Of a stretch of 35,356 bases of DNA, positions 1,599-21,337 are shown piece after piece. The translations under genes were made by a program, and so were the position numbers. Below the pieces are notes generated by a model. The model saw only the letters and a program-made list of their open reading frames with translations. It searched no databases and was not told where the DNA came from. Where the stretch lies: NCBI GenBank assembly GCA_003648635.1, contig QMPQ01000007.1:1-35356 (forward strand). The letters are read 5' to 3'. The DNA is from Bacteroidota bacterium. Its GTDB lineage: Bacteria > Bacteroidota > Bacteroidia > Bacteroidales > GCA-2748055. Every line of letters starts with the position of its first letter. Position 1 is the first letter of the stretch.

Positions 1599-2057
1599 AT
1601 GGTATACCCCGTACTCTCCGATGAATATTTTATGAATGAGGCACTTAAGGAAGCTCACAAGGCCATGGACATGGAAGAGGTGCCGGTGGGAGCAGTAGTG
1701 GTGAATCAGAACAGGATCATTGCCAGGGCGCATAACATGACCCAGCAATTGAATGATGTGACCGCCCATGCAGAAATGATTGCTATTACCTCAGCCGCCA
1801 ACTACCTTGGTGCCAAATATCTTACAGAGTGCACCCTCTATGTTACTCTGGAGCCCTGTGTGATGTGTGCCGCCGCCCTGAAATGGGCCCAACTGGGCAG
1901 CCTGGTTTTTGCAGCCTCCGATCCAAAGGAGGGTTTTTCCCATCTGAAAGAGAAGATTCTTCATAAAAAAACGGTCGTGCTTCCGGGCATGCTGGAAGAA
2001 GAGGCATCCCTCCTGCTTAAGCAGTTTTTCCTGAAACGTCGCGACTCGAAAAACTAG
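1599..2057 (+). CDS. tadA: tRNA adenosine(34) deaminase / nucleoside deaminase
   Basis: 152 aa; zinc-deaminase motifs HAEMIAI and PCVMCAAAL. Confidence 0.93.
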   Translation: MVYPVLSDEYFMNEALKEAHKAMDMEEVPVGAVVVNQNRIIARAHNMTQQLNDVTAHAEMIAITSAANYLGAKYLTECTLYVTLEPCVMCAAALKWAQLGSLVFAASDPKEGFSHLKEKILHKKTVVLPGMLEEEASLLLKQFFLKRRDSKN

Positions 2058-5000
2058 ATGCCTGCCACCGGTTCAGCTTCTTTTTGAAAATAGAGAGAGC
2101 TGTAGTATTCTATGTAATCGAGCAGTCTCTCTCTGTACTCCTCCAATCCAAGCTCTTCCTCATCACAGATCAAATAAGACATATCGGCCCGCCTGAAAGC
2201 AAAGTGCCGGGCGCGGTCCTGCCTGTGAAAGAACTCTTTATCATCGGTCGACATTCCTTTGGGAAGTCTGGTACGTTCCCAAATGCTTACCAGCTCGCTG
2301 TACACTTTCTCTCGTTCCCGCAGGTTGCTCTCAATAATTTGAACTGCTTTCTCCAGGGACCCCAGGGCCGCTTCATGATTCCGAAAGCGCTGATTATGGG
2401 CTTCCTTGATGCTTCGCTCAAGTTCTGAAAGTGTCAGGTAGGTATTGCAGCTATGGTTTACCAGTTGAACGATGGAAGAGAAGATCTCCAGATCATAGCT
2501 GTTCCGGATACCAGCCGACTGATTTGCCCGGATGATTTCCATGGCACGTTCCATATGTTTGATCTGCTTCCGGGATTCATCAATTTTCTCAGCATACTCG
2601 CGATTCCAGAATTCATCATACTCCAGGTTGTCACCGCGAGGCAGATCAGGCAGATGCGTCTTGCCGATATCGCCATAGTGCCAGACCCTGCGTTCAAAAG
2701 ATTTATAATAGAAATAGGCTGCCTTATTAAGCAATAGGAACAGTTCCTTCATATCACTGGACCTATCCCCGTAATAGTTCAGGAAAAACTTGTTACTAAA
2801 CTCCTCCGCTGATGGATTGGCACCGCTCCAGGACCATTCGGCCGAGTTGATAAAACTCATCATCCAGACTTGATTATGCAGCCCTGAATCATCCCATGAG
2901 GTGTTGATCATACCATCAAAATATCCTGATACTGCCGCCCGGGAGACCTCCTTATGGGATCTTTGCAATGAGTTTTCAGCCTCATGTTCATTCTCTCCTT
3001 CCCCTCTAAGTTTGTAAAAGTAGGGAAGGAAAAGCGGTTCAATGCCCGGGTTGGGATCATAGGTGAAAATTTCGTAGCCTGCCTCACTTGCTTCCCTGGC
3101 ATAGGTGAAGTCATCACTCTCATACTTGTAATCCTCCATCAATACCAGTCCCTCCAGCGGCTCTTTACCCCTGGCAGGCGAATCACTATGTGCCCAGCCC
3201 ATGGGCCTTTCCCAGGCCATTACTGTTCTGCCTAAAGCCTGCAGGGGTGCTCCGGCCTGTTTGATAAACTGGTGATAGAGTCCGCTTTTTCCAATTTCCT
3301 CAGATTTTTGCTGGCAGAGCTCACACAGACCCAATTCATAGGTCTCATCGGAGCCGATGTGGATGTATTCCGAACCGGGAGTAGCCTCTATGGCATCTTT
3401 CCAGAGATCCCAGAGCAAGTCATAACTTCCCTCTTTCAGCGGGCAGAACTCCCAGTTGGAGGCCTCGATCTCACGAAGGTGACTATGTTGTGGCCACTTC
3501 AGGATGTAGCTCACATGTCCAAGCCCCTGAACCAGGGGTACCAATTGCACATGGTATTTCTTTGCATAGTGTGTGATTTCCTGCATCTCTTCCATGGTGA
3601 AGGCTCCCGGAGCCCCAATCTCGGGATGGCTGGGGTAGAGGAATTTGTCCTCCCATTCCCAGACCAGCATATTGATCTTATACCTGGCCAGATCCCGGAT
3701 GAAGCCTTCGACATATTCGCGCTTGTCCTGGTGATGCTTGGTATCGTAGTGACAGGCCCGCTGCGGAATATCTGGCCAGTCGGTAATTCTCATTCCGGGA
3801 ATATAGGATCCCGCCTCGCCTGCTTTCAGGATCTGCAGCAAAGTCTGGGTACCATAAAAAAGGCCAGCATCCCCCATAGCCCTGATGGTCAATTGATCCT
3901 TATTTACGAGCATTTCATATCCCTGGAGGGCTGTCTTTTCCGGGAGTGAAGTGATTTTTTCAGAAACTCCATCATGGGTCAATCGGATGGCCCCGGGGGA
4001 CTCCTGCTCGGTGATCTCAGCTTTTATGGCCCATTCTGTTTCAAGAGTTCGGGCCAGCTCCCGGGCCGTAAACTTCACCTGATCTGTGGCATCCCTGTCA
4101 AGAACAATGCGCAGTTCATCTCCAGGAACAAAATCTCCCTCCTGAAAGCTCACTTCCTGGGGATATGGGATGAGGGTGATTCCCTCCTTAAAGAGTGCAG
4201 TTATAGCCTCCTCTCCGCCCTCTTCCTTTTTAACAATGACAATTCTATGTGCCGGTCCGGATACCCCTGCCAGATTCATGGTCCGAAAATGAAATTCATG
4301 CCTCTCCCCGCTCAGCTCCATGTCCAGGGAATCCTTCACCGCTTCCCACTCCCCTGAAGGACCTATCCTTAACTGGTACTCTTTCAGATTGGGAGTTTCA
4401 GAGAAGAGCCTTATCCTGGCCATGTGACCCTCGAGCCGGATCTCCGAATAAATTGTATTGGGCGTCCACTCAATAGCATCACGGTTGCTAACCCGGCGCA
4501 TAAACTCGGGCTTGTCATAGGCCCAGTGGGGTTTCCCATCCCAGATCCAGGTATGATTCAGAAAATAATCATCTTCATACATGCTCAGTAAAGTTTCATG
4601 CTCCGGCCAAACAGTAAACATATCGTTGTGGGTATGATACTCGATCCAGGTATAGGTCTGTGCACTGCGTTCCCAGCTTGATCCGGTTTCAGGATTAATT
4701 TGCTTGGGGATTCGATCCGGACCTCTTACCAGAGTGATATCCGCCGCCCCGTTTTTCAAATATTCGTCACGGATTTCCAAAGCAGATAAAGGGATCCCAT
4801 CTTTTTCAAAATGATGATCGTACTTGGCATCTGAGAGAAACCATTTCTGGTAGTCGTTGAGCCAGATCTCGTTGATTCCATGATGCCCATCTGGTCCATC
4901 CATCACTCCGGGACCTGCACCAAGCGTTCTGCTCACATAGCCATAGGCATTCATGATACCATTCTGTACCTTCATGAAATGACCGCAATGAAATCCCTGT

Positions 5001-5323
5001 CCCTCTAATGCTTCATCTAATATACCCTCCACATATCCCCCTCCGGGGTAGGGATCGCCATGATCATCAATCGATACTACCGACCGGATCCAATGCCTGA
5101 GCATCAGAATTCTTTTAAACTCATCTGTCTCTCCCCGAAATATGGTATCCAGCTGATACTTCTCTTTTAGGACCTGAAATCCGGGATGGTTCAGGTCTTC
5201 GTTGCCCATAAATTCAACATTGGGCTTGAACAGGGGATTGTCAACTTTCTCAAGAACATATTCCGGATTAGAGCATCCGGCAACTACAATTAATAACAGG
5301 GCAGGCAAAAATTTAGCTTTCAT
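2054..5323 (-). CDS. Lipoprotein with N-terminal transglutaminase-like region and C-terminal GH20-like (beta-N-acetylhexosaminidase) region
   Basis: Start trimmed from ORF 5449 to M at 5323 giving MKAKFLPALLLIVVAGCSNPEY (lipobox). FHCGHFMKVQNG...GHHGINEIWLND...LSDAKYDHH fits a Cys-His-Asp arrangement; later GLFYGTQTLLQIL...RITDWPDIPQRACHYD...HIGSDETYELG is GH20-like. Confidence 0.85.
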   Translation of the reverse strand: MKAKFLPALLLIVVAGCSNPEYVLEKVDNPLFKPNVEFMGNEDLNHPGFQVLKEKYQLDTIFRGETDEFKRILMLRHWIRSVVSIDDHGDPYPGGGYVEGILDEALEGQGFHCGHFMKVQNGIMNAYGYVSRTLGAGPGVMDGPDGHHGINEIWLNDYQKWFLSDAKYDHHFEKDGIPLSALEIRDEYLKNGAADITLVRGPDRIPKQINPETGSSWERSAQTYTWIEYHTHNDMFTVWPEHETLLSMYEDDYFLNHTWIWDGKPHWAYDKPEFMRRVSNRDAIEWTPNTIYSEIRLEGHMARIRLFSETPNLKEYQLRIGPSGEWEAVKDSLDMELSGERHEFHFRTMNLAGVSGPAHRIVIVKKEEGGEEAITALFKEGITLIPYPQEVSFQEGDFVPGDELRIVLDRDATDQVKFTARELARTLETEWAIKAEITEQESPGAIRLTHDGVSEKITSLPEKTALQGYEMLVNKDQLTIRAMGDAGLFYGTQTLLQILKAGEAGSYIPGMRITDWPDIPQRACHYDTKHHQDKREYVEGFIRDLARYKINMLVWEWEDKFLYPSHPEIGAPGAFTMEEMQEITHYAKKYHVQLVPLVQGLGHVSYILKWPQHSHLREIEASNWEFCPLKEGSYDLLWDLWKDAIEATPGSEYIHIGSDETYELGLCELCQQKSEEIGKSGLYHQFIKQAGAPLQALGRTVMAWERPMGWAHSDSPARGKEPLEGLVLMEDYKYESDDFTYAREASEAGYEIFTYDPNPGIEPLFLPYFYKLRGEGENEHEAENSLQRSHKEVSRAAVSGYFDGMINTSWDDSGLHNQVWMMSFINSAEWSWSGANPSAEEFSNKFFLNYYGDRSSDMKELFLLLNKAAYFYYKSFERRVWHYGDIGKTHLPDLPRGDNLEYDEFWNREYAEKIDESRKQIKHMERAMEIIRANQSAGIRNSYDLEIFSSIVQLVNHSCNTYLTLSELERSIKEAHNQRFRNHEAALGSLEKAVQIIESNLREREKVYSELVSIWERTRLPKGMSTDDKEFFHRQDRARHFAFRRADMSYLICDEEELGLEEYRERLLDYIEYYSSLYFQKEAEPVAGI

Positions 5324-5364
5324 GGGATCCAAATATTGAATAAATTTATAGAAATATACTCCAA

Positions 5365-5376
5365 TATTTGCAAATA
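5365..5376. promoter_or_regulatory. Perfect 12-bp palindrome TATTTGCAAATA in the divergent intergenic region
   Basis: Read directly; lies between the 5323(-) and 5384(+) starts. Confidence 0.4.
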
Positions 5377-5383
5377 AACTGTG

Positions 5384-6838
5384 ATGAAAAAGCTTACATC
5401 TATCCCGATTGCAACACTTGCGGTCCTGCTCCTTATTATTCCGTTTCAAAATGCTATTTCACAAATTGAAGATGATGTAGTTGTTATCCGGTCTCAGGAA
5501 ATTGACAAGGTCTTAGATAATCCGGGAATGGGATTTATGACCTTCCAGCGCTTCAATGGTGATGAGTTGAATGAAGGCAGCGGCTGGACCGAAGGATTCC
5601 CAATTGATTATCAGGAATTTGATGGAGATTTATCCAACCTGAATTATCCCTCTACCACCATCGCCTACTGGCGCATATATTGGAAGTTTATGGAGCCTGA
5701 AGAGGGAGCATATCAATGGGACATGCTGGACAGGGCACTCGCTTTGGCCAGATCAAGGGGACAAACCCTAATTATTAGGATTGCTCCCTATGGAACAGGC
5801 GATGAGCGAGATGTCCCCCAATGGTACCGTGCTTTGGTTGGCGATGAAAAAGAGTGGACCTATAGCAATCCCGTGAATAAGTGGATGGTGAATCCTGAAG
5901 ATGCACGCTATGCCAAATACTTCGGGGGACTTATAGGTGCGATGGGAAAGCGCTATGATGGCCATCCCGACCTGGAAGCGGTGGACCTTGCGATAATCGG
6001 AGCATGGGGAGAAGGTGCCGGATCAGAACTACTGAGTCAGCCTACAAGGGAAGCACTGGTAAATGCCTATACCTCTTCGTTCAGGAAAACTCCCTTGATT
6101 GCCCTGCTCATGGATGAAAAAACAAACATGTACGCTAATTCACAGATACCAGTAGGATGGAGAGTCGACTGCATAGGTGACCTGGGATTCTGGGCAGATG
6201 AACAAAACGGGTGGACCCACATGTATGACTTTTACCCTCAGGAAATTATTAACTGCGGGCTTGAAGATGATTGGCTTAGCTCGCCCCTCAGTTTTGAAAT
6301 CTGCGGAACATTCCTTCGCTGGAGAGACCAGGAGGGTTATGATAGGGACGATGTGAAGTATATTTTCGACGAAACACTCAAATGGCATATCTCCTCTTTT
6401 AACGCCAAATCGTCCCCGGTACCAGAAGAGTGGAATGATCTGGTTGAGGAGTGGTTGAAAAGAATGGGTTATAGGTTTGTTTTAAGAAGATTCAGCTACC
6501 CCAAACAGGTACATCCAAACGGCTGGCTCCCATTCCTTAGCTGGTGGGAGAACAAAGGCGTTGCTCCCTGCTACAAAGATTTCACCCTGGCCCTGCGCTT
6601 GTTTTCTGATAATCAATCCATTGTGCTTCCTACAGATGCCGTTGTCAAAGAGTGGCTCCCCGGAGATAATATTTATGATCATTCCCTCTTCATTCCGGAT
6701 CATGTATCTGAAGGCATTTATGAATTACAAGTAGCTGTTGTAGATCGTAGAAATCATGAACCCAGGGTAAATCTTGCTATTGAAGGCAGAAAAGATGATG
6801 GCTGGTATCAACTTGGAAAAATTGAAGTTGTCCGATAA
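5384..6838 (+). CDS. Secreted DUF4832-type / TIM-barrel glycoside-hydrolase-like protein
   Basis: Signal peptide MKKLTSIPIATLAVLLLIIPFQNAISQ; NPGMGFMTFQRF, TIAYWRIYWKFMEPEEGAYQWDMLDRALALARSRGQTLIIRIAPYG, DLAIIGAWGEG. Alternative GTG start at 5381. Confidence 0.75.
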   Translation: MKKLTSIPIATLAVLLLIIPFQNAISQIEDDVVVIRSQEIDKVLDNPGMGFMTFQRFNGDELNEGSGWTEGFPIDYQEFDGDLSNLNYPSTTIAYWRIYWKFMEPEEGAYQWDMLDRALALARSRGQTLIIRIAPYGTGDERDVPQWYRALVGDEKEWTYSNPVNKWMVNPEDARYAKYFGGLIGAMGKRYDGHPDLEAVDLAIIGAWGEGAGSELLSQPTREALVNAYTSSFRKTPLIALLMDEKTNMYANSQIPVGWRVDCIGDLGFWADEQNGWTHMYDFYPQEIINCGLEDDWLSSPLSFEICGTFLRWRDQEGYDRDDVKYIFDETLKWHISSFNAKSSPVPEEWNDLVEEWLKRMGYRFVLRRFSYPKQVHPNGWLPFLSWWENKGVAPCYKDFTLALRLFSDNQSIVLPTDAVVKEWLPGDNIYDHSLFIPDHVSEGIYELQVAVVDRRNHEPRVNLAIEGRKDDGWYQLGKIEVVR

Positions 6839-13290: not shown

Positions 13291-14076
13291 ATGTATACCG
13301 ACTCACATACACACCTATACCTGGATGCCTTTGAAGACGATAGGGATCAAATGATCCAAAGGGCCATCGAATCTGGTGTAAGTCGAATGTTGCTACCCAA
13401 TATCGACAGCTCATCCATCGGCCCCCTGTTTGCTCTTGCAGAACGTTTTCCGGACCACTGTTTTCCAATGATGGGCTTGCATCCCACATCAGTTAAGGAG
13501 AATTACCAGGAGGAGCTAATGCGCATTGAGGAAGCTTTAGATCACAAAGATATTATTGCCATCGGTGAGACAGGTATTGACCTTTACTGGGATAAAACTT
13601 TTCTAAAGGAGCAAGAGAAGGTTTTTAGTACTCAGATTGCCTGGGCCATGAAACTTGATCTTCCTCTGGTGATTCATGCAAGGGATTCTTTTCAGGAAAT
13701 ATTTGCTGTCCTGGACAGAGCCGGAGGTCCAGAACTCCGAGGAGTGTTCCATAGTTTTACAGGTGGACCGGCCGAACTGGAGCGTGCGCTTTCCTATAAC
13801 TTTATGATAGGCATCAATGGCATTGTCACTTTCAAGAACTCGAATCTGGCAGAGGTCGTCAGTAAAATTCCCTTAAACAGGCTCCTTCTGGAGACCGATG
13901 CCCCTTTTCTGGCGCCAGTACCTCACAGGGGAAGGAGAAATGAGAGCAGTTACCTGCTTGAAACTGCTGCTAAAGTGGCAGATATTCATAACTTGAACAA
14001 AGAAGAGATCGCCAGGATCACTTCTGTAAACGCTGAGCTATTGTTTCGCCTAAAACCCCAATATGAACCCAGATAA
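13291..14076 (+). CDS. tatD: TatD family hydrolase
   Basis: 261 aa; YTDSHTHLYLDAF, GETGIDLYW, LPLVIHARDS, GVFHSFTG, LLLETDAPFLAPVPHRGRRNE. Confidence 0.93.
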   Translation: MYTDSHTHLYLDAFEDDRDQMIQRAIESGVSRMLLPNIDSSSIGPLFALAERFPDHCFPMMGLHPTSVKENYQEELMRIEEALDHKDIIAIGETGIDLYWDKTFLKEQEKVFSTQIAWAMKLDLPLVIHARDSFQEIFAVLDRAGGPELRGVFHSFTGGPAELERALSYNFMIGINGIVTFKNSNLAEVVSKIPLNRLLLETDAPFLAPVPHRGRRNESSYLLETAAKVADIHNLNKEEIARITSVNAELLFRLKPQYEPR

Positions 14077-15100
14077 ACCCACCATATTAATAATTTATAC
14101 AGGTGGCACCATCGGTATGATTAATGACCCGGCCAATGGTTCATTGAAGCCCTTCGATCTTAATAAGATCATGGAGCACATCCCCGAAATCAAAAGCCTG
14201 GGCTACCGAATCGAATCCCACAGTTTTGATTCACCCATAGACTCTTCTGAGATTGAACCGGCCATTTGGACCCGAATCGCCGAAATCATCGAAGAGAACT
14301 ATCAGGCCTTTGATGGATTTGTCATATTGCACGGAACCGATACCATGGCCTATTCGGCTTCAGCACTCAGTTTTATGCTGGAAGACCTGGCGAAACCGGT
14401 CATTTTTACAGGCTCCCAACTTCCCATCGGGGCCCTGAGAACAGATGGAAAGGAGAACCTGATCACCTCCATCGTGATTGCAGCGGCAAAAGAATTTGAC
14501 AAGCCGGTAGTCCCGGAAGTGTGTGTGTATTTTGAGAGTAAACTCGCGCGCGGAAACAGAACCACCAAAGTCAGTGCCGAACAGTTTAATGCCTTTCAGT
14601 CTGCCAACTATCCCTACCTTGCAAATGCAGGAGTACATATTATATATCACAGGGAAGCCATCAGGTATCCGGGGGAACCAAAGGAACTTGTGGTTCACAA
14701 AGAGTTTAACAATCATATTGCAATCCTGAAACTGTTTCCTGGAATAACATCGGAATATATGGATGCAGTTCTTGGATACCAAGAATTGAAAGGTTTGGTT
14801 CTGGAGACCTACGGTGCCGGAAATGCTCCCACAGAATCCTGGTTTCTGGAGAGAATAAAAATAGCAATTGAAAAGGGGGTGGTCATTTTAGATGTGACAC
14901 AATGTATCAAAGGGAGTGTTGAGCTGGGAAGATATGAAACCAGCAGGCATCTTTTAAATGCCGGGGTAATAAGCGGTTACGATATTACAACGGAAGCTGC
15001 CACCACCAAAATGATGATTCTGCTGGCGCAGAATCTGGATGATGAAGAGGTTAAAATGCTTTTAAATAAATCGCTGAAGGGAGAAATCACTCTGCCTTGA
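14063..15100 (+). CDS. ansA: Type I L-asparaginase
   Basis: 345 aa; ILIIYTGGTIGM, FVILHGTDTMAYSASALSFML, VIFTGSQLPI, LVLETYGAGNAP. Overlaps tatD by 14 nt. Confidence 0.93.
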   Translation: MNPDKPTILIIYTGGTIGMINDPANGSLKPFDLNKIMEHIPEIKSLGYRIESHSFDSPIDSSEIEPAIWTRIAEIIEENYQAFDGFVILHGTDTMAYSASALSFMLEDLAKPVIFTGSQLPIGALRTDGKENLITSIVIAAAKEFDKPVVPEVCVYFESKLARGNRTTKVSAEQFNAFQSANYPYLANAGVHIIYHREAIRYPGEPKELVVHKEFNNHIAILKLFPGITSEYMDAVLGYQELKGLVLETYGAGNAPTESWFLERIKIAIEKGVVILDVTQCIKGSVELGRYETSRHLLNAGVISGYDITTEAATTKMMILLAQNLDDEEVKMLLNKSLKGEITLP

Positions 15101-15241
15101 GTGCTAGTTTTAATATTTTTTTGTATTTTTCGCCGCAAATTTCTCCCGAGTGAAAGGATGTAATCTGATACGGGAGTAGTTCTTACAAAATTCTGAAGAT
15201 AAGCGGGTTTGAGTGGCCCAGTTAGTCTTTACAGGTATAAC

Positions 15242-15329
15242 GGAGAGGTGCAGGAGTGGTTTAACTGGCACGCCTGGAAAGCGTGTGTACCTCAAAAGGG
15301 TACCGAGGGTTCGAATCCCTCCCTCTCCG
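15242..15329 (+). tRNA. tRNA-Ser (anticodon GGA)
   Basis: GGAGAGG/CCTCTCC acceptor pair, anticodon loop CTGGAAA, long variable arm (TGTGTACCTCAAAAGGGTACC), GGTTCGAATCC T-arm. CCA not encoded. Confidence 0.95.
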
Positions 15330-15436
15330 CATTTTTCTTTTACAAATCGTATATTTACACTAACTTGTATAAATCATTAACCTAATTAAGGAAATATTTA
15401 ACGTTAAATAATAAAGTAAAACAAACAAACAACACC

Positions 15437-16249
15437 ATGAAAAAATTATTTGCATTGATAGCCGTATTCGGGATGCTTTTTATGGGAGCATCAATCTTTG
15501 CACAGGATGAAACAACGGATAGTCCTGCTGCTGAAGAGACCACACAGGTTGCTGAAGAGGTTGTACCTGAGCCCGTAGCTGCTGAACCAGCTGCCGAAGA
15601 AAAAGGTGGAATTGCAGTACTGCACACCACCCTGAAGACCAAATTCATTGAAGGTGGCGCCAGTTTTATGGGCGCTGTGCTTCTGTGCTTGATTTTCGGT
15701 CTGGCTCTGTCTTTTGAAAGGGTTATTTACCTGAACCTTGCCGCTACCAATACTGACAAGCTTCTCCAGGAAGTTGAAGAAGCGCTGAACAGTGGCGGAG
15801 TTGAAGCTGCCAAAGAATTATGCCGCAACACCCGCGGTCCTGTAGCCAGTATCTTTTACCAGGGTCTGGATCGTATCGATGAAGGAATTGATGTGGTCGA
15901 AAAATCAGTTGTATCCTATGGTAGTGTACAGATGGGCCTTATGGAGAAAAACCTTAGCTGGATCTCCTTGTTTATCGCCATCGCTCCTATGCTTGGTTTC
16001 ATGGGTACAGTAATTGGTATGATCGATGCATTTGATCAAATCCAGATACAGGGAGATATGTCTCCAACCGTTGTAGCGGGTGGTATCAAGGTCGCCCTTA
16101 TTACAACTGTTACCGGTCTGATGGTGGCCATCATCCTCCAGATTTTCTACAATTACCTGATATCTCAAATTGACGGTATCGTCAATAAGATGGAAGACTC
16201 TTCTATCTCACTTGTAGACATGCTGGTAAAACATAAACTTAAAAAATAA
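15437..16249 (+). CDS. exbB: ExbB/TolQ/MotA-family proton channel protein
   Basis: 270 aa; signal-like N-terminus, Ala/Glu-rich linker, IAIAPMLGFMGTVIGMIDAFDQIQ and VALITTVTGLMVAIILQIFYN. Confidence 0.9.
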   Translation: MKKLFALIAVFGMLFMGASIFAQDETTDSPAAEETTQVAEEVVPEPVAAEPAAEEKGGIAVLHTTLKTKFIEGGASFMGAVLLCLIFGLALSFERVIYLNLAATNTDKLLQEVEEALNSGGVEAAKELCRNTRGPVASIFYQGLDRIDEGIDVVEKSVVSYGSVQMGLMEKNLSWISLFIAIAPMLGFMGTVIGMIDAFDQIQIQGDMSPTVVAGGIKVALITTVTGLMVAIILQIFYNYLISQIDGIVNKMEDSSISLVDMLVKHKLKK

Positions 16250-16255
16250 GAAGCT

Positions 16256-16918
16256 ATGGCTTTTTCTAAATTAACAAAAATCATTTTGTGGGTGGTTGCT
16301 GGAATCTCCCTCATCGTGGTTCTTTTCTTCTACATCGGACCCAAGACCGTCGGTGATTATGACGCACTGGTGGACCGGGTTGATGACGCACTGGCCGGTG
16401 TGGATATTACTCCATTAGCCCCTATGCCTGTCATAGATACATCTCTGACAGACTCTATTGCTATTGCTGAGAATATTGCCGCCGTCCAGCAAGCTGAAGA
16501 GGAGCATCTTGCTGCAGCAACTGCGGCGGCCGAGGCTCCACAGAAAACTGTCAAAGAACTGACAACTGGCTGGGAAGCTCTACTCTATTTTCGTACCGAT
16601 ATAGCACTGATGTGGGCATATATCCTTATTCTCATCACTTTGATTGCTGCTATCGCGTTTCCGCTTGTTGCTGTAATTTCCAACCCCAAAGCCCTCATAA
16701 GGTTACTGATAGTACTTGCAGGTTTTGCAGTGTTGGTGGTGGTTTCATACCTGTTGGCCAGCGATACAGCCATGGAAATCATTGGTTACGATGGAACAGG
16801 AAACACTGATCCGGGAACCTTGAAGATGGTCGATACAGTCTTGTTTGTGACCTATATGCTGTTTGGATTGGCTCTTGGATCAATTCTCTATGCCATTACT
16901 TCAAAGGCATTTAAATAA
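16256..16918 (+). CDS. Membrane protein encoded between exbB and exbD
   Basis: 220 aa; several hydrophobic helices; 6 nt after exbB. Confidence 0.8.
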   Translation: MAFSKLTKIILWVVAGISLIVVLFFYIGPKTVGDYDALVDRVDDALAGVDITPLAPMPVIDTSLTDSIAIAENIAAVQQAEEEHLAAATAAAEAPQKTVKELTTGWEALLYFRTDIALMWAYILILITLIAAIAFPLVAVISNPKALIRLLIVLAGFAVLVVVSYLLASDTAMEIIGYDGTGNTDPGTLKMVDTVLFVTYMLFGLALGSILYAITSKAFK

Positions 16919-16942
16919 GAATCACTAGAAAAACAAAAACCG

Positions 16943-17578
16943 ATGGCATCAAGAGAAACACCGGAAGTAAATGGAGGATCACTGGCTGATATTGCCTTTC
17001 TCCTGTTAATATTCTTCCTGGTTACTACTACCATGGATACCGACACCGGGATCACCAGGCTGTTGCCTCCAGAACCCGATCCAGAACAGGAAGATGTTGA
17101 AGTGAGGGTAAACAAGCGAAATGTGCTGGTGGTGCTTCTCAACCGAAGCGACCTGCTGATGGTGGGTGGAGAAGTAATGGATAGGCTTGCTTTGAAAGAC
17201 AAGACCATTGAGTTCTTCACCAATCCGCTGTACAAAGAAGATCTGCCAGTTATGGAAGAGACTGAAATACAGTTTCCTCCTGGTAGTTCATCTCTTCTTC
17301 CCGAAGATGGAATGTGGAGGGGCGAGGTCTCCAAAGGGGTGATTTCGCTTCAAAACGACCGTTCAACCACCTACGGGAAATACCTGCAGGTTCAGAACGA
17401 GTTAGTTGCAGCGGTAAACACTTTGAGAAATGACTTCTGTAACCTATACTTCGACAAGGATTACAGTGAGCTAAACACAAATAATCCCATTGAAGAGGAG
17501 ATACAGCTGGGAATCCGGAAGAGGTATAAGATGAATATTTCCGAATCGGAACCTAAAAGTATAGGAGGGCGTAACTAA
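16943..17578 (+). CDS. exbD: ExbD/TolR-family protein (longer paralogue)
   Basis: NGGSLADIAFLLLIFFLVTTTMDTDTGITRLLPPEP is the ExbD N-terminal TM signature. Confidence 0.87.
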   Translation: MASRETPEVNGGSLADIAFLLLIFFLVTTTMDTDTGITRLLPPEPDPEQEDVEVRVNKRNVLVVLLNRSDLLMVGGEVMDRLALKDKTIEFFTNPLYKEDLPVMEETEIQFPPGSSSLLPEDGMWRGEVSKGVISLQNDRSTTYGKYLQVQNELVAAVNTLRNDFCNLYFDKDYSELNTNNPIEEEIQLGIRKRYKMNISESEPKSIGGRN

Positions 17579-18078
17579 TGTCTAAATTCAGAAAAAAAGG
17601 TGGGAAAGGTCTTCAGAAGATCAACACCTCTTCTCTTCCCGACATTGTTTTCATGCTGTTGTTCTTTTTCATGGTGGCAACAACAATGAGGGAAACTGAG
17701 ATTCAGGTAAGAGTTAAAGTTCCTGAAGCCACAGAGGTAAAGAAGCTGGAGAAGAAATCTCTTGTGAGTTACATCTACATCGGACGCCCCATTGCACACG
17801 TGGCCAGGATGTATGGAACTGAACCCCTGATTCAGCTTAATGACAAGCTGGTCAGTGAGGAGGGTATCCCCTATGAGGCGATTCAGGACTTTGTTCTGTT
17901 TGAGAGGGAAAAACTTCCCGAAGCTGATAAGAGCAAAATGGTCATATCCATGAGGGTCGACCAGGATATTTCTATGGGTAAAGTAGATGATGTGAAACAG
18001 TCGCTCAGAAGAGCAAAAGCTTTGATTATCAACTATTCTGCTAAGAAGGAATATAGAAATCAGGGAAGACAAAGGTAA
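17578..18078 (+). CDS. exbD: ExbD/TolR-family protein (second paralogue)
   Basis: INTSSLPDIVFMLLFFFMVATTMRETEIQVRVKVPEA; start shares 1 nt with the preceding stop. Confidence 0.88.
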   Translation: MSKFRKKGGKGLQKINTSSLPDIVFMLLFFFMVATTMRETEIQVRVKVPEATEVKKLEKKSLVSYIYIGRPIAHVARMYGTEPLIQLNDKLVSEEGIPYEAIQDFVLFEREKLPEADKSKMVISMRVDQDISMGKVDDVKQSLRRAKALIINYSAKKEYRNQGRQR

Positions 18079-18099
18079 CAGGATTAGATCCAAACATAC

Positions 18100-18134
18100 A
18101 GAGGGCGCCCATATGGGTTGCCCTCTTTTTTTTT
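18100..18134 (+). terminator. Intrinsic terminator after the exbD cluster
   Basis: AGAGGGC / GCCCTCT arms (18100-18106, 18120-18126), inner GCCC-ATAT-GGGT, then a run of T. Confidence 0.88.
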
Positions 18135-18194
18135 CTTATACTCAGCCATATATAGTTTCGCAGCTGAAATAAGAAAACCTGAAGAGAATAAGGG

Positions 18195-19178
18195 TTATTC
18201 GTATAGGGCGGCGTAAACCTGGTCAACCATGTCCTGGAAGGTCTCAGGCTGATCAAAGAGAGAACGTTTCTTCATGAAGCGCTCTGTGTGGTATAATAGC
18301 TTGGTTTTATCTGAGCCTGTATACTTTTCTATGGAACTATCAAAGTAGAGCTCACTGATGTTTTTATCGTACAGTTTCTTTACCGAGTTCCCGATGCCAA
18401 AAAGCAGGTAATATTTGGAGATCTGTTTGGCCGGATTCTCATAGTCGCAATAGATTTTATCCACGTAGGTTCCATTCTCATAAATCACCACCTCCCTGAC
18501 AAATCCCTCATAGGTATAGAAGACCCACTCCCCATGGCGCTGGCGTGTCTTTTTAAATCCCTGGACCTTGATGGTCCCATCATTATAAAATTCCATCTCG
18601 GGCACATACATCTTACCACTGGGTGCCTTTAGTTTGCCATTCACCAGGTTTCGGTCCTCAATGCCGAAATAACTCAGATAAGGCATGTCACGAATAATCT
18701 CCTCCGGATTTGAGGCATCTTCAGGCTTCTGGTAATTGGCACCAGCAAATACCTCTTCTGCTTGCTCAATAAACAGCTCCTGTTCATAAATACCATCCTC
18801 ATAAGCCTTCCTATCCCTCAATTTGGAAATAAGAAGCCCCATATCGCTGTGTTGGCTGCCACTCAGATCTGCCAGTCCCATGGATGTAAGAATCAACTCC
18901 TTTTCATTTCTGAAGAGAAAGGTGTTGAGTTTATCATGATGCAGAATCCTCAGGTTCTTGTACTCCTTGAACCAACGCTGGCCCCGGGTCTGGTTCCGCT
19001 CCTTCCCATATACCAGTGTAATGCGGACATTCCGTTGATCAGCCTGCTGAAACCTCAGGATAACACTTTCATGTAATTTCAGCACCGGGGCGAAGAAAAC
19101 AATCTCATTGTTGGCCTCCGAAATCATACGGTCAATCTGGTATGATGTCCCAACAGGTGACAGGAATTCAGCAGCCAT
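18195..19178 (-). CDS. PLD-like domain protein with MORN/YwqK-like C-terminal region
   Basis: 327 aa; EANNEIVFFAPVLKL, ILHHDKLNTFLFRNEKELILTSMGLADLSGSQHSDMGLLIS resembles a PLD-like HxK core; MEFYNDGTIKVQGFKKTRQRHGEWVFYTYEGFVREVVIYENGTYVDK resembles MORN-type repeats. Confidence 0.65.
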   Translation of the reverse strand: MAAEFLSPVGTSYQIDRMISEANNEIVFFAPVLKLHESVILRFQQADQRNVRITLVYGKERNQTRGQRWFKEYKNLRILHHDKLNTFLFRNEKELILTSMGLADLSGSQHSDMGLLISKLRDRKAYEDGIYEQELFIEQAEEVFAGANYQKPEDASNPEEIIRDMPYLSYFGIEDRNLVNGKLKAPSGKMYVPEMEFYNDGTIKVQGFKKTRQRHGEWVFYTYEGFVREVVIYENGTYVDKIYCDYENPAKQISKYYLLFGIGNSVKKLYDKNISELYFDSSIEKYTGSDKTKLLYHTERFMKKRSLFDQPETFQDMVDQVYAALYE

Positions 19179-19323: not shown

Positions 19324-19337
19324 GAAAGTTATGTATG

Positions 19338-19410
19338 TGACTCCAGGAGGACTCGAACCCCCACCATGGGAACCGGAATCCCACGTTCTATCCAGTTAAA
19401 CTATGGAGCC
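19338..19410 (-). tRNA. tRNA-Arg (anticodon CCG)
   Basis: Minus strand GGCTCCA...TGGAGTC acceptor, anticodon stem TGGGA/TCCCA with loop TTCCGGT, T-arm GGTTCGAGTCC. CCA not encoded. Confidence 0.93.
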
Positions 19411-19439: not shown

Positions 19440-19598
19440 CTAAAGCTCAGCTCTTATAAGCTCCCAATCCAGATCAATGGGTTCCGCTTCAAAATCCTTT
19501 GCAGGCTTGAAGGAGAGCGCCTCTCTGATCCGGGAATGGAAGCTTGGATGAGTGGAGATGATCTCAAAATGTTGTATTAATTCATTGTCCATCTCCTC
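19440..19598 (-). other. Frame-displaced C-terminal segment of the M48 peptidase
   Basis: Minus-strand reading in the -1 frame: EEMDNELIQHFEIISTHPSFHSRIREALSFKPAKDFEAEPIDLDWELIRAEL*, including the STHPS..SRI motif expected in an M48 C-terminus. Confidence 0.75.
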
Positions 19599-20215
19599 CC
19601 CAGCTTTCTGAAGAGGGTGGCCAAAGATCGCGGTTCAATGGAAGCTGTTTCAAGCAGCTTTGCTGCAAACAGGTCTGCCTCCTCCTCCTGCTTTCGGTCA
19701 AAACTGGTGGAAGTAAGCAGCTCGCTTACCTCCCCGATCACATATTGATCTCCAGATGTGAGGATCTCAATTCCCAGCTCCTTGATAAGTCGTGAAACTA
19801 CATGTCGTTCCTCCACATGACCCATCTCATGCGCTATAACTGCTGCAAGCTCCTCTGGTGTATCACAGAAAGCCAGGAGCCCGGTTGAGATCAGGATGTT
19901 TCCTCCCGGCACGGTAAAGGCATTGATCATTTCGCTGTCAAACACTACAAAATGGTAATTATATTCAGAATCCTCCAAACCCTCTTCCAGGCGGTCTGCG
20001 ATCACCCTGACCGCCGAATCGACGCGACTGTTATCAAACTCTCCGAAGACAGGATTCAAGAGGATCAGATCCACATAGACTTCCCCCAACTTCTCCTCTT
20101 TGTGGATGCTTATGAGCTGAGGATCCTCTGGATAGGAAAAGAGCGAAAATACCAGCCAGATGAGTCCAAAAACCCCCAGCAACACAAGCAGATCCCGAAG
20201 AATAGTTCTTTGCAT
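19577..20215 (-). CDS. M48 family metalloprotease, prematurely terminated by an apparent frameshift
   Basis: AAVIAHEMGHVEERHV (HExxH), EEEADLFAAKLL (third ligand); ends ...LFRKLGRRWTMN* before the expected C-terminus. Confidence 0.88.
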   Translation of the reverse strand: MQRTILRDLLVLLGVFGLIWLVFSLFSYPEDPQLISIHKEEKLGEVYVDLILLNPVFGEFDNSRVDSAVRVIADRLEEGLEDSEYNYHFVVFDSEMINAFTVPGGNILISTGLLAFCDTPEELAAVIAHEMGHVEERHVVSRLIKELGIEILTSGDQYVIGEVSELLTSTSFDRKQEEEADLFAAKLLETASIEPRSLATLFRKLGRRWTMN

Positions 20216-20737: not shown

Positions 20738-21337
20738 CTATACCTCATCTGGCAGTTCATCACCCGTAAAAGGTGGATAGGTATCAGTCATGTACATCAT
20801 GTAAAGACTCACCCGCAACTGCCATCGTATTTGTCCAGTTACCCAATCGAACATAAAATCCGGATACTTGGCGGTGAATAGTACGATCCACCAGGCCAGA
20901 AAGGTTAATATGCCTACAAACCAGGCCCTGAATATCAGGATAAACATATGTGGCAGGTAGACATAAAAAATCCCGAAAAACAGCCTTATCAACATCAATC
21001 CCCGGTTTACCTTTTCAGGATAGGGCACGACCAGATCGGTATTTTCATCGGTCGAATTAATCCCGAAGGCCGGGTAACCATCCGATACATTGTACATCCT
21101 GGCGTTTACTCGCAAGCTCCATTTCATGAGCCCTACCTGGAATTCAAACATACTCTGGGGGTAGCGCCCGGTAAAAAGAATGACCCAGAAGGCCGCAAAT
21201 TGAAGAATAGCTCCCCATAAGCTTACAAACATTAAAATGAAGACATGTGGAATAAGGATGTAAATCCAGCCAAACAGGGTTCTAAGCAATAGCTCACCTC
21301 TGGAATAGCGCTCCTGATGTTGAATGGTTAATTTCAT
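20738..21337 (-). CDS. DUF4389-like membrane protein with two tandem copies of the domain
   Basis: Copy 1 RGELLLRTLFGWIYILIPHVFILMF...WVILFTGRYPQSMFEFQVGLMKWSLRVNARMYNVSDGYPAF; copy 2 RGLMLIRLFFGIFYVYLPHMFILIF...WIVLFTAKYPDFMFDWVTGQIRWQLRVSLYMMYMTDTYPPF. Confidence 0.75.
   Translation of the reverse strand: MKLTIQHQERYSRGELLLRTLFGWIYILIPHVFILMFVSLWGAILQFAAFWVILFTGRYPQSMFEFQVGLMKWSLRVNARMYNVSDGYPAFGINSTDENTDLVVPYPEKVNRGLMLIRLFFGIFYVYLPHMFILIFRAWFVGILTFLAWWIVLFTAKYPDFMFDWVTGQIRWQLRVSLYMMYMTDTYPPFTGDELPDEV

Follow-up and report, generated by a model that had tools for sequence, protein, structure and literature searches.

A frameshifted M48 peptidase gene within an apparently loss-prone gene block in a genus of Bacteroidales

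The window analysed here is a stretch of 35,356 nucleotides from a Bacteroidota bacterium (assembly GCA_003648635.1) and represents contig C7 of a draft genome comprising 416 contigs (G000), which we compared with 17 congeners. It carries a gene for a peptidase of family M48 with a broken reading frame, adjoining genes for two membrane proteins and a tRNA. The features of this locus are as follows:

19577..20215, minus strand: M48 peptidase ORF in its truncated form, 212 aa (Pfam PF01435, 86.5 bits, residues 62-202)
19440..19598, minus strand: displaced C-terminal tail, 52 codons plus stop in the -1 frame (aligned to residues 207-258 of the relatives)
19589..19603, minus strand: frame-change site CTGGGGAGGAGATG (comparison with the nearest relative)
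19817..19831, minus strand: HEMGH, zinc/catalytic motif located in the head, which is intact (sequence reading)
19673..19687, minus strand: EEEAD, region of the third zinc ligand, likewise in the intact head (sequence reading)
19530..19550, minus strand: HPx4R active-site-plug motif (HPSFHSR), in the displaced frame only (motif definition from PMC7950410)
20225..20710, minus strand: intact upstream partner of the M48 gene within the block, a DUF4870 membrane protein (PF09685, 40.2 bits)
20738..21337, minus strand: intact DUF4389 membrane protein with which the block begins (PF14333, 56.7 bits)
19337..19410, minus strand: tRNA-Arg (CCG), directly downstream of the M48 gene and conserved flank of the block (ARAGORN)

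Upstream of the M48 gene, the DUF4870 and DUF4389 genes are followed by the divergently oriented leuS, and on the other side tRNA-Arg(CCG) is accompanied by a gene whose 327-aa product shows a weak match of the PLD-like kind. The window also contains a 1131-aa ORF (2054-5449) in which a transglutaminase-type domain precedes a hexosaminidase-type (GH20-like) domain, as judged by eye.

Assignment of the truncated ORF to family M48, as proposed in the first-pass annotation, is borne out by its PF01435 score, which is to be compared with a gathering cut-off of 20.3 bits, as well as by the presence of the HExxH motif and of the third ligand glutamate (ExxAD region), both read in the head frame. In Escherichia coli BepA, zinc is liganded by the two histidines of HExxH, a glutamate and H246 of an active-site plug, and the plug motif HPx4R is conserved throughout PF01435 (PMC7950410). 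In the intact relatives read out, this motif lies in the same frame as the head, which is not the case in the window. The best match among solved structures is PDB 3c37, a peptidase of the M48 family (98.7 bits, residues 33-233, plug motif included) that is intact, whereas the window copy is frameshifted; when used as a profile, the intact relatives match 3c37 and the BepA structures 6sar and 6ait through the STHP..R segment.

BepA (YfgC) shares with the window gene the M48 domain, HExxH, the glutamate ligand and HPx4R, provided that both frames of the window are taken together. It is also the best NCBIfam match, though an intact relative falls outside this family with 85.7 bits against an equivalog cut-off of 570 bits (NF052400) and without the TPR domain. 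Unlike BepA, the window protein ends after the M48 domain and has a hydrophobic N-terminus resembling a membrane anchor, and its gene is frameshifted. The E. coli M48 lipoprotein LoiP (YggG) is likewise small (about 250 aa) and of similar domain extent, but its score of 49.5 bits remains under the curated cut-off of 365 bits, and the N-terminus of the window protein is devoid of a lipobox cysteine.

The 212-aa ORF terminates with the residues LATLFRKLGRRWTMN and a stop codon. Codons 1-205 are homologous to those of relatives, and the final seven residues are out of frame and without homology. Reading in the -1 frame past CTG GGG yields EEMDNELIQHFEIISTHPSFHSRIREALSFKPAKDFEAEPIDLDWELIRAEL, i.e., 52 codons at 19443-19598 on the minus strand with a stop codon at 19440-19442, and the frame break falls between codons 205 and 207 in the numbering of the relatives' reading. 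With the homologue L002 from congener G010, the head shares 86% identity over residues 1-205 and the tail 77% over residues 203-258. Both pieces thus match one protein collinearly with an offset of -1 base, and the displaced tail is therefore not due to chance. This confirms the -1 frame change described in the first-pass annotation and likewise sustains the idea that a functional tail has been displaced. The tail matches the relatives in its own frame and holds the HPx4R plug motif.

Full M48 genes of 258-259 aa are present in five congeners (G010, G007, G016, G008 and G015; L002-L006) and are 73-85% identical to the window gene. Continuous homologues also occur in the sister genera G019 and G022 of the same family, and all full-length homologues comprise approximately 258-263 aa. 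None of the relatives shares the frameshift, the five same-genus and two same-family frames being open, and intact, continuous orthologues in close relatives, by which a pseudogene is recognized, accordingly number seven. It had been considered that close homologues might all end at the short form; instead, every full-length homologue in the alignment carries the tail. In the nearest relative, G004 (LeuS 94% identical), the slot between leuS and tRNA-Arg is unassembled. A second, intact M48 allele was sought in the window's own assembly and not found, and a wider scan of contigs returned only more distant named relatives outside the window's genus, the best being the Bacteroidales MAG C14-09 with 58%.

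At the frame-change site, CTGGGGAGGAGATG in the window stands against CTG GAG GAG GAG ATG in the nearest relative compared there (L002, G010), and other members of the genus feature GAG GAG GAA, GAG GAT GAG, GAA GAG GAA or GAA CAG GAA at the break. The window is one base shorter than these codons, which mostly specify glutamate, and the best reading of the event is therefore that a run of GAG codons has lost one base. A single deletion within GAG codons would suffice to produce the observed sequence, and contraction of a homopolymer would need an additional substitution. The proposal of a contracted G tract is thus not upheld, as the relatives do not have a G tract at this position. While a fifth G would indeed join the two frames arithmetically, the homologues indicate a glutamate codon and not a longer run of G.

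The block formed by DUF4389, DUF4870 and M48 has a patchy distribution within the genus. G003, G006, G009 and G017 have leuS and tRNA-Arg almost immediately next to each other, and all three genes are absent. The nearly identical junction of these four species, GAAATTATAAAAA[A/T]CTATTAACTTTG, connects the region just 5' of leuS with that just 5' of tRNA-Arg. G001, G012 and G014 also lack the block but have different spacers. The block-less G006 is the sister of the block-bearing G010 (LeuS tree support 100/99), and parsimony on the LeuS tree requires at least six changes for presence or absence of the block, with G002 not scored as an absence because its leuS contig stops just inside DUF4389. 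G005 has lost the interior of its M48 gene, of which only the start and the last codons are left beside the tRNA. DUF4389 and DUF4870 are also internally collapsed there (L017, G005:C131, 1679-2054), so the whole block decays together in G005 or is misassembled in this genome.

The identity of intact M48 copies drops with species distance and the site is always the same, and repeated loss is therefore favoured over repeated gain. Exchange of alleles between species is a further possibility at this locus. The block-less junction in the four species with nearly identical spacers (L141, L145, L148 and L157) exhibits a C that is unseen in the block-bearing copies read out, and judging from the sequences an empty allele without the block may have a single origin and move between species. 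Furthermore, contigs of four congeners end inside the block (G002:C220/C128, G010:C51, G011:C388 and G016:C533), as would be expected if strains with and without the block occurred side by side in the populations sampled.

A search of the window's genome with the M48 profile revealed a second M48 gene, LoiP-like, of which a remnant of 104 residues is left (L178, G000:C21, 5932-6243). This remnant is 5'-truncated, lacks HExxH and matches residues 159-262 of a relative in G003 (262 aa) with 82% identity. A Ste24-like M48 protein of about 410 residues that occurs in most relatives was not found in the window's assembly, which could be explained by a gap in the draft.

Taken together, a real and very recent one-base deletion has probably inactivated a single-copy, membrane-anchored, BepA/LoiP-like M48 protease, in line with the recent inactivating deletion that is the best supported of the options offered in the first-pass annotation. 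A real loss is favoured because the block is absent in several congeners, the G005 copy is internally deleted and the second M48 gene is a remnant; it is rendered less certain by the 416-contig draft, an isolated stop codon in a cytochrome gene (see below), the lack of a clear sign of relaxed selection and the unassembled slot in G004. We infer a genuine absence of the base in living cells as well as a loss of function in the short product. Translation would pass HEMGH and EEEAD, go out of frame and stop seven codons later, giving a product without the last 52 residues, among them those of the plug (HPx4R) packed into the active site. Such a product would most likely be misfolded, unstable or deregulated and would not have the function of a regular M48 enzyme. 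In the genus, the gene itself appears to be dispensable and to be lost repeatedly, usually as a whole block together with the two upstream membrane-protein partners.

The main rival reading, less probable and also raised in the first-pass annotation, is that the organism has an intact gene and that one base was dropped from the draft assembly or its consensus. When compared to G010, the head has a dN/dS of 0.085 and the tail, read in its own frame, one of 0.116, in keeping with intact relatives. Head and tail are both still under a strong signal of purifying selection, and as the tail is not yet drifting, the deletion either happened very recently or is an error of the consensus. The lineage-specific changes counted in the head (7 vs. 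2) are too few to tell, and no clear relaxation of selection is seen by which the event could be placed before sampling.

The rate of assembly errors was estimated by comparing 835 kb of the window's genome with 1.6 Mb of G003. This comparison does detect the M48 frameshift, yet it uncovered no convincing mid-gene frameshift in 244 other testable orthologues (90,319 residues), and indel errors are therefore rare in the assembly. A single N-terminal discrepancy among the compared genes lies upstream of the likely start. A cytochrome c gene (L203, G000:C40, 9681-10805), 75% identical to its G003 counterpart over the full length, is interrupted at codon 202 by a lone in-frame TAA, which is a nonsense mutation or a base error and hints that rare single-base consensus errors may exist. 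Dropped bases are expected at long homopolymers, whereas the site in question comprises only four G, and an error is further disfavoured by a locus that is prone to real loss across the genus. Most internal stops flagged genome-wide were discarded, as they apparently reflect antisense shadow ORFs or over-extended starts (alignments judged by eye). In G003, three adjacent genes (L282, G003:C12, approximately 13996-18216) that are open in the window's genome contain in-frame stops; by eye, they are outer-membrane-like, NHL-like and cytochrome-like and apparently form a decaying cluster.

Programmed -1 frameshifting or a phase-variable tract, as also suggested in the first-pass annotation, is the least probable of all explanations: although the G before the P-site GGG could permit a -1 slip into the tail frame, the relatives are continuous without the tract, neither slippery site nor two-frame layout is conserved, in-frame NNG GGG is common (21 in 8,965 codons of 27 intact window genes), runs of exactly four G or C number 130, and the RNA downstream of the site folds no better than shuffled sequences (z = -0.54). 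A run of four G is shorter than the phase-variable tracts known. We rejected recoding as well as slippage on a G tract, based on the codons of the relatives, on how often the motif occurs and on RNA folding.

Hardly more probable is that the truncated protein has remained functional, be it alone as a deregulated protease that lacks the plug or together with a tail translated on its own after re-initiation. The HEMGH and EEEAD motifs are undamaged, and the tail ORF has a possible start codon, ATG at 19592, overlapping the head ORF by 16 bases. In addition, the H246N plug exchange in BepA appears to deregulate rather than abolish proteolysis, but this variant fails to complement (PMC7950410). 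Moreover, 52 residues and not one side chain are lost here, the tail is kept in all full-length relatives and the split form is found in none of them. That a plug-less M48 protease, or one working with a separately translated tail, exists in the living cell is thus very unlikely; if true, it would constitute a natural loss of the autoinhibitory plug, resulting in a constitutively open enzyme.

Returning to the deletion as the preferred explanation, the M48 gene conforms to ordinary single-base-indel pseudogenes in that one base is lost, the orthologues of close relatives are intact and the remainder is preserved, with nothing essential being different. It is a case of ordinary gene decay, already known in kind. 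In otherwise close species, the block between leuS and tRNA-Arg may be intact, carry a frameshift, be internally deleted or be cleanly absent, and co-loss suggests that the three genes constitute one dispensable membrane-associated unit. The frameshift in the M48 gene has a small value in that it captures an early stage of decay at a locus repeatedly lost in the genus.
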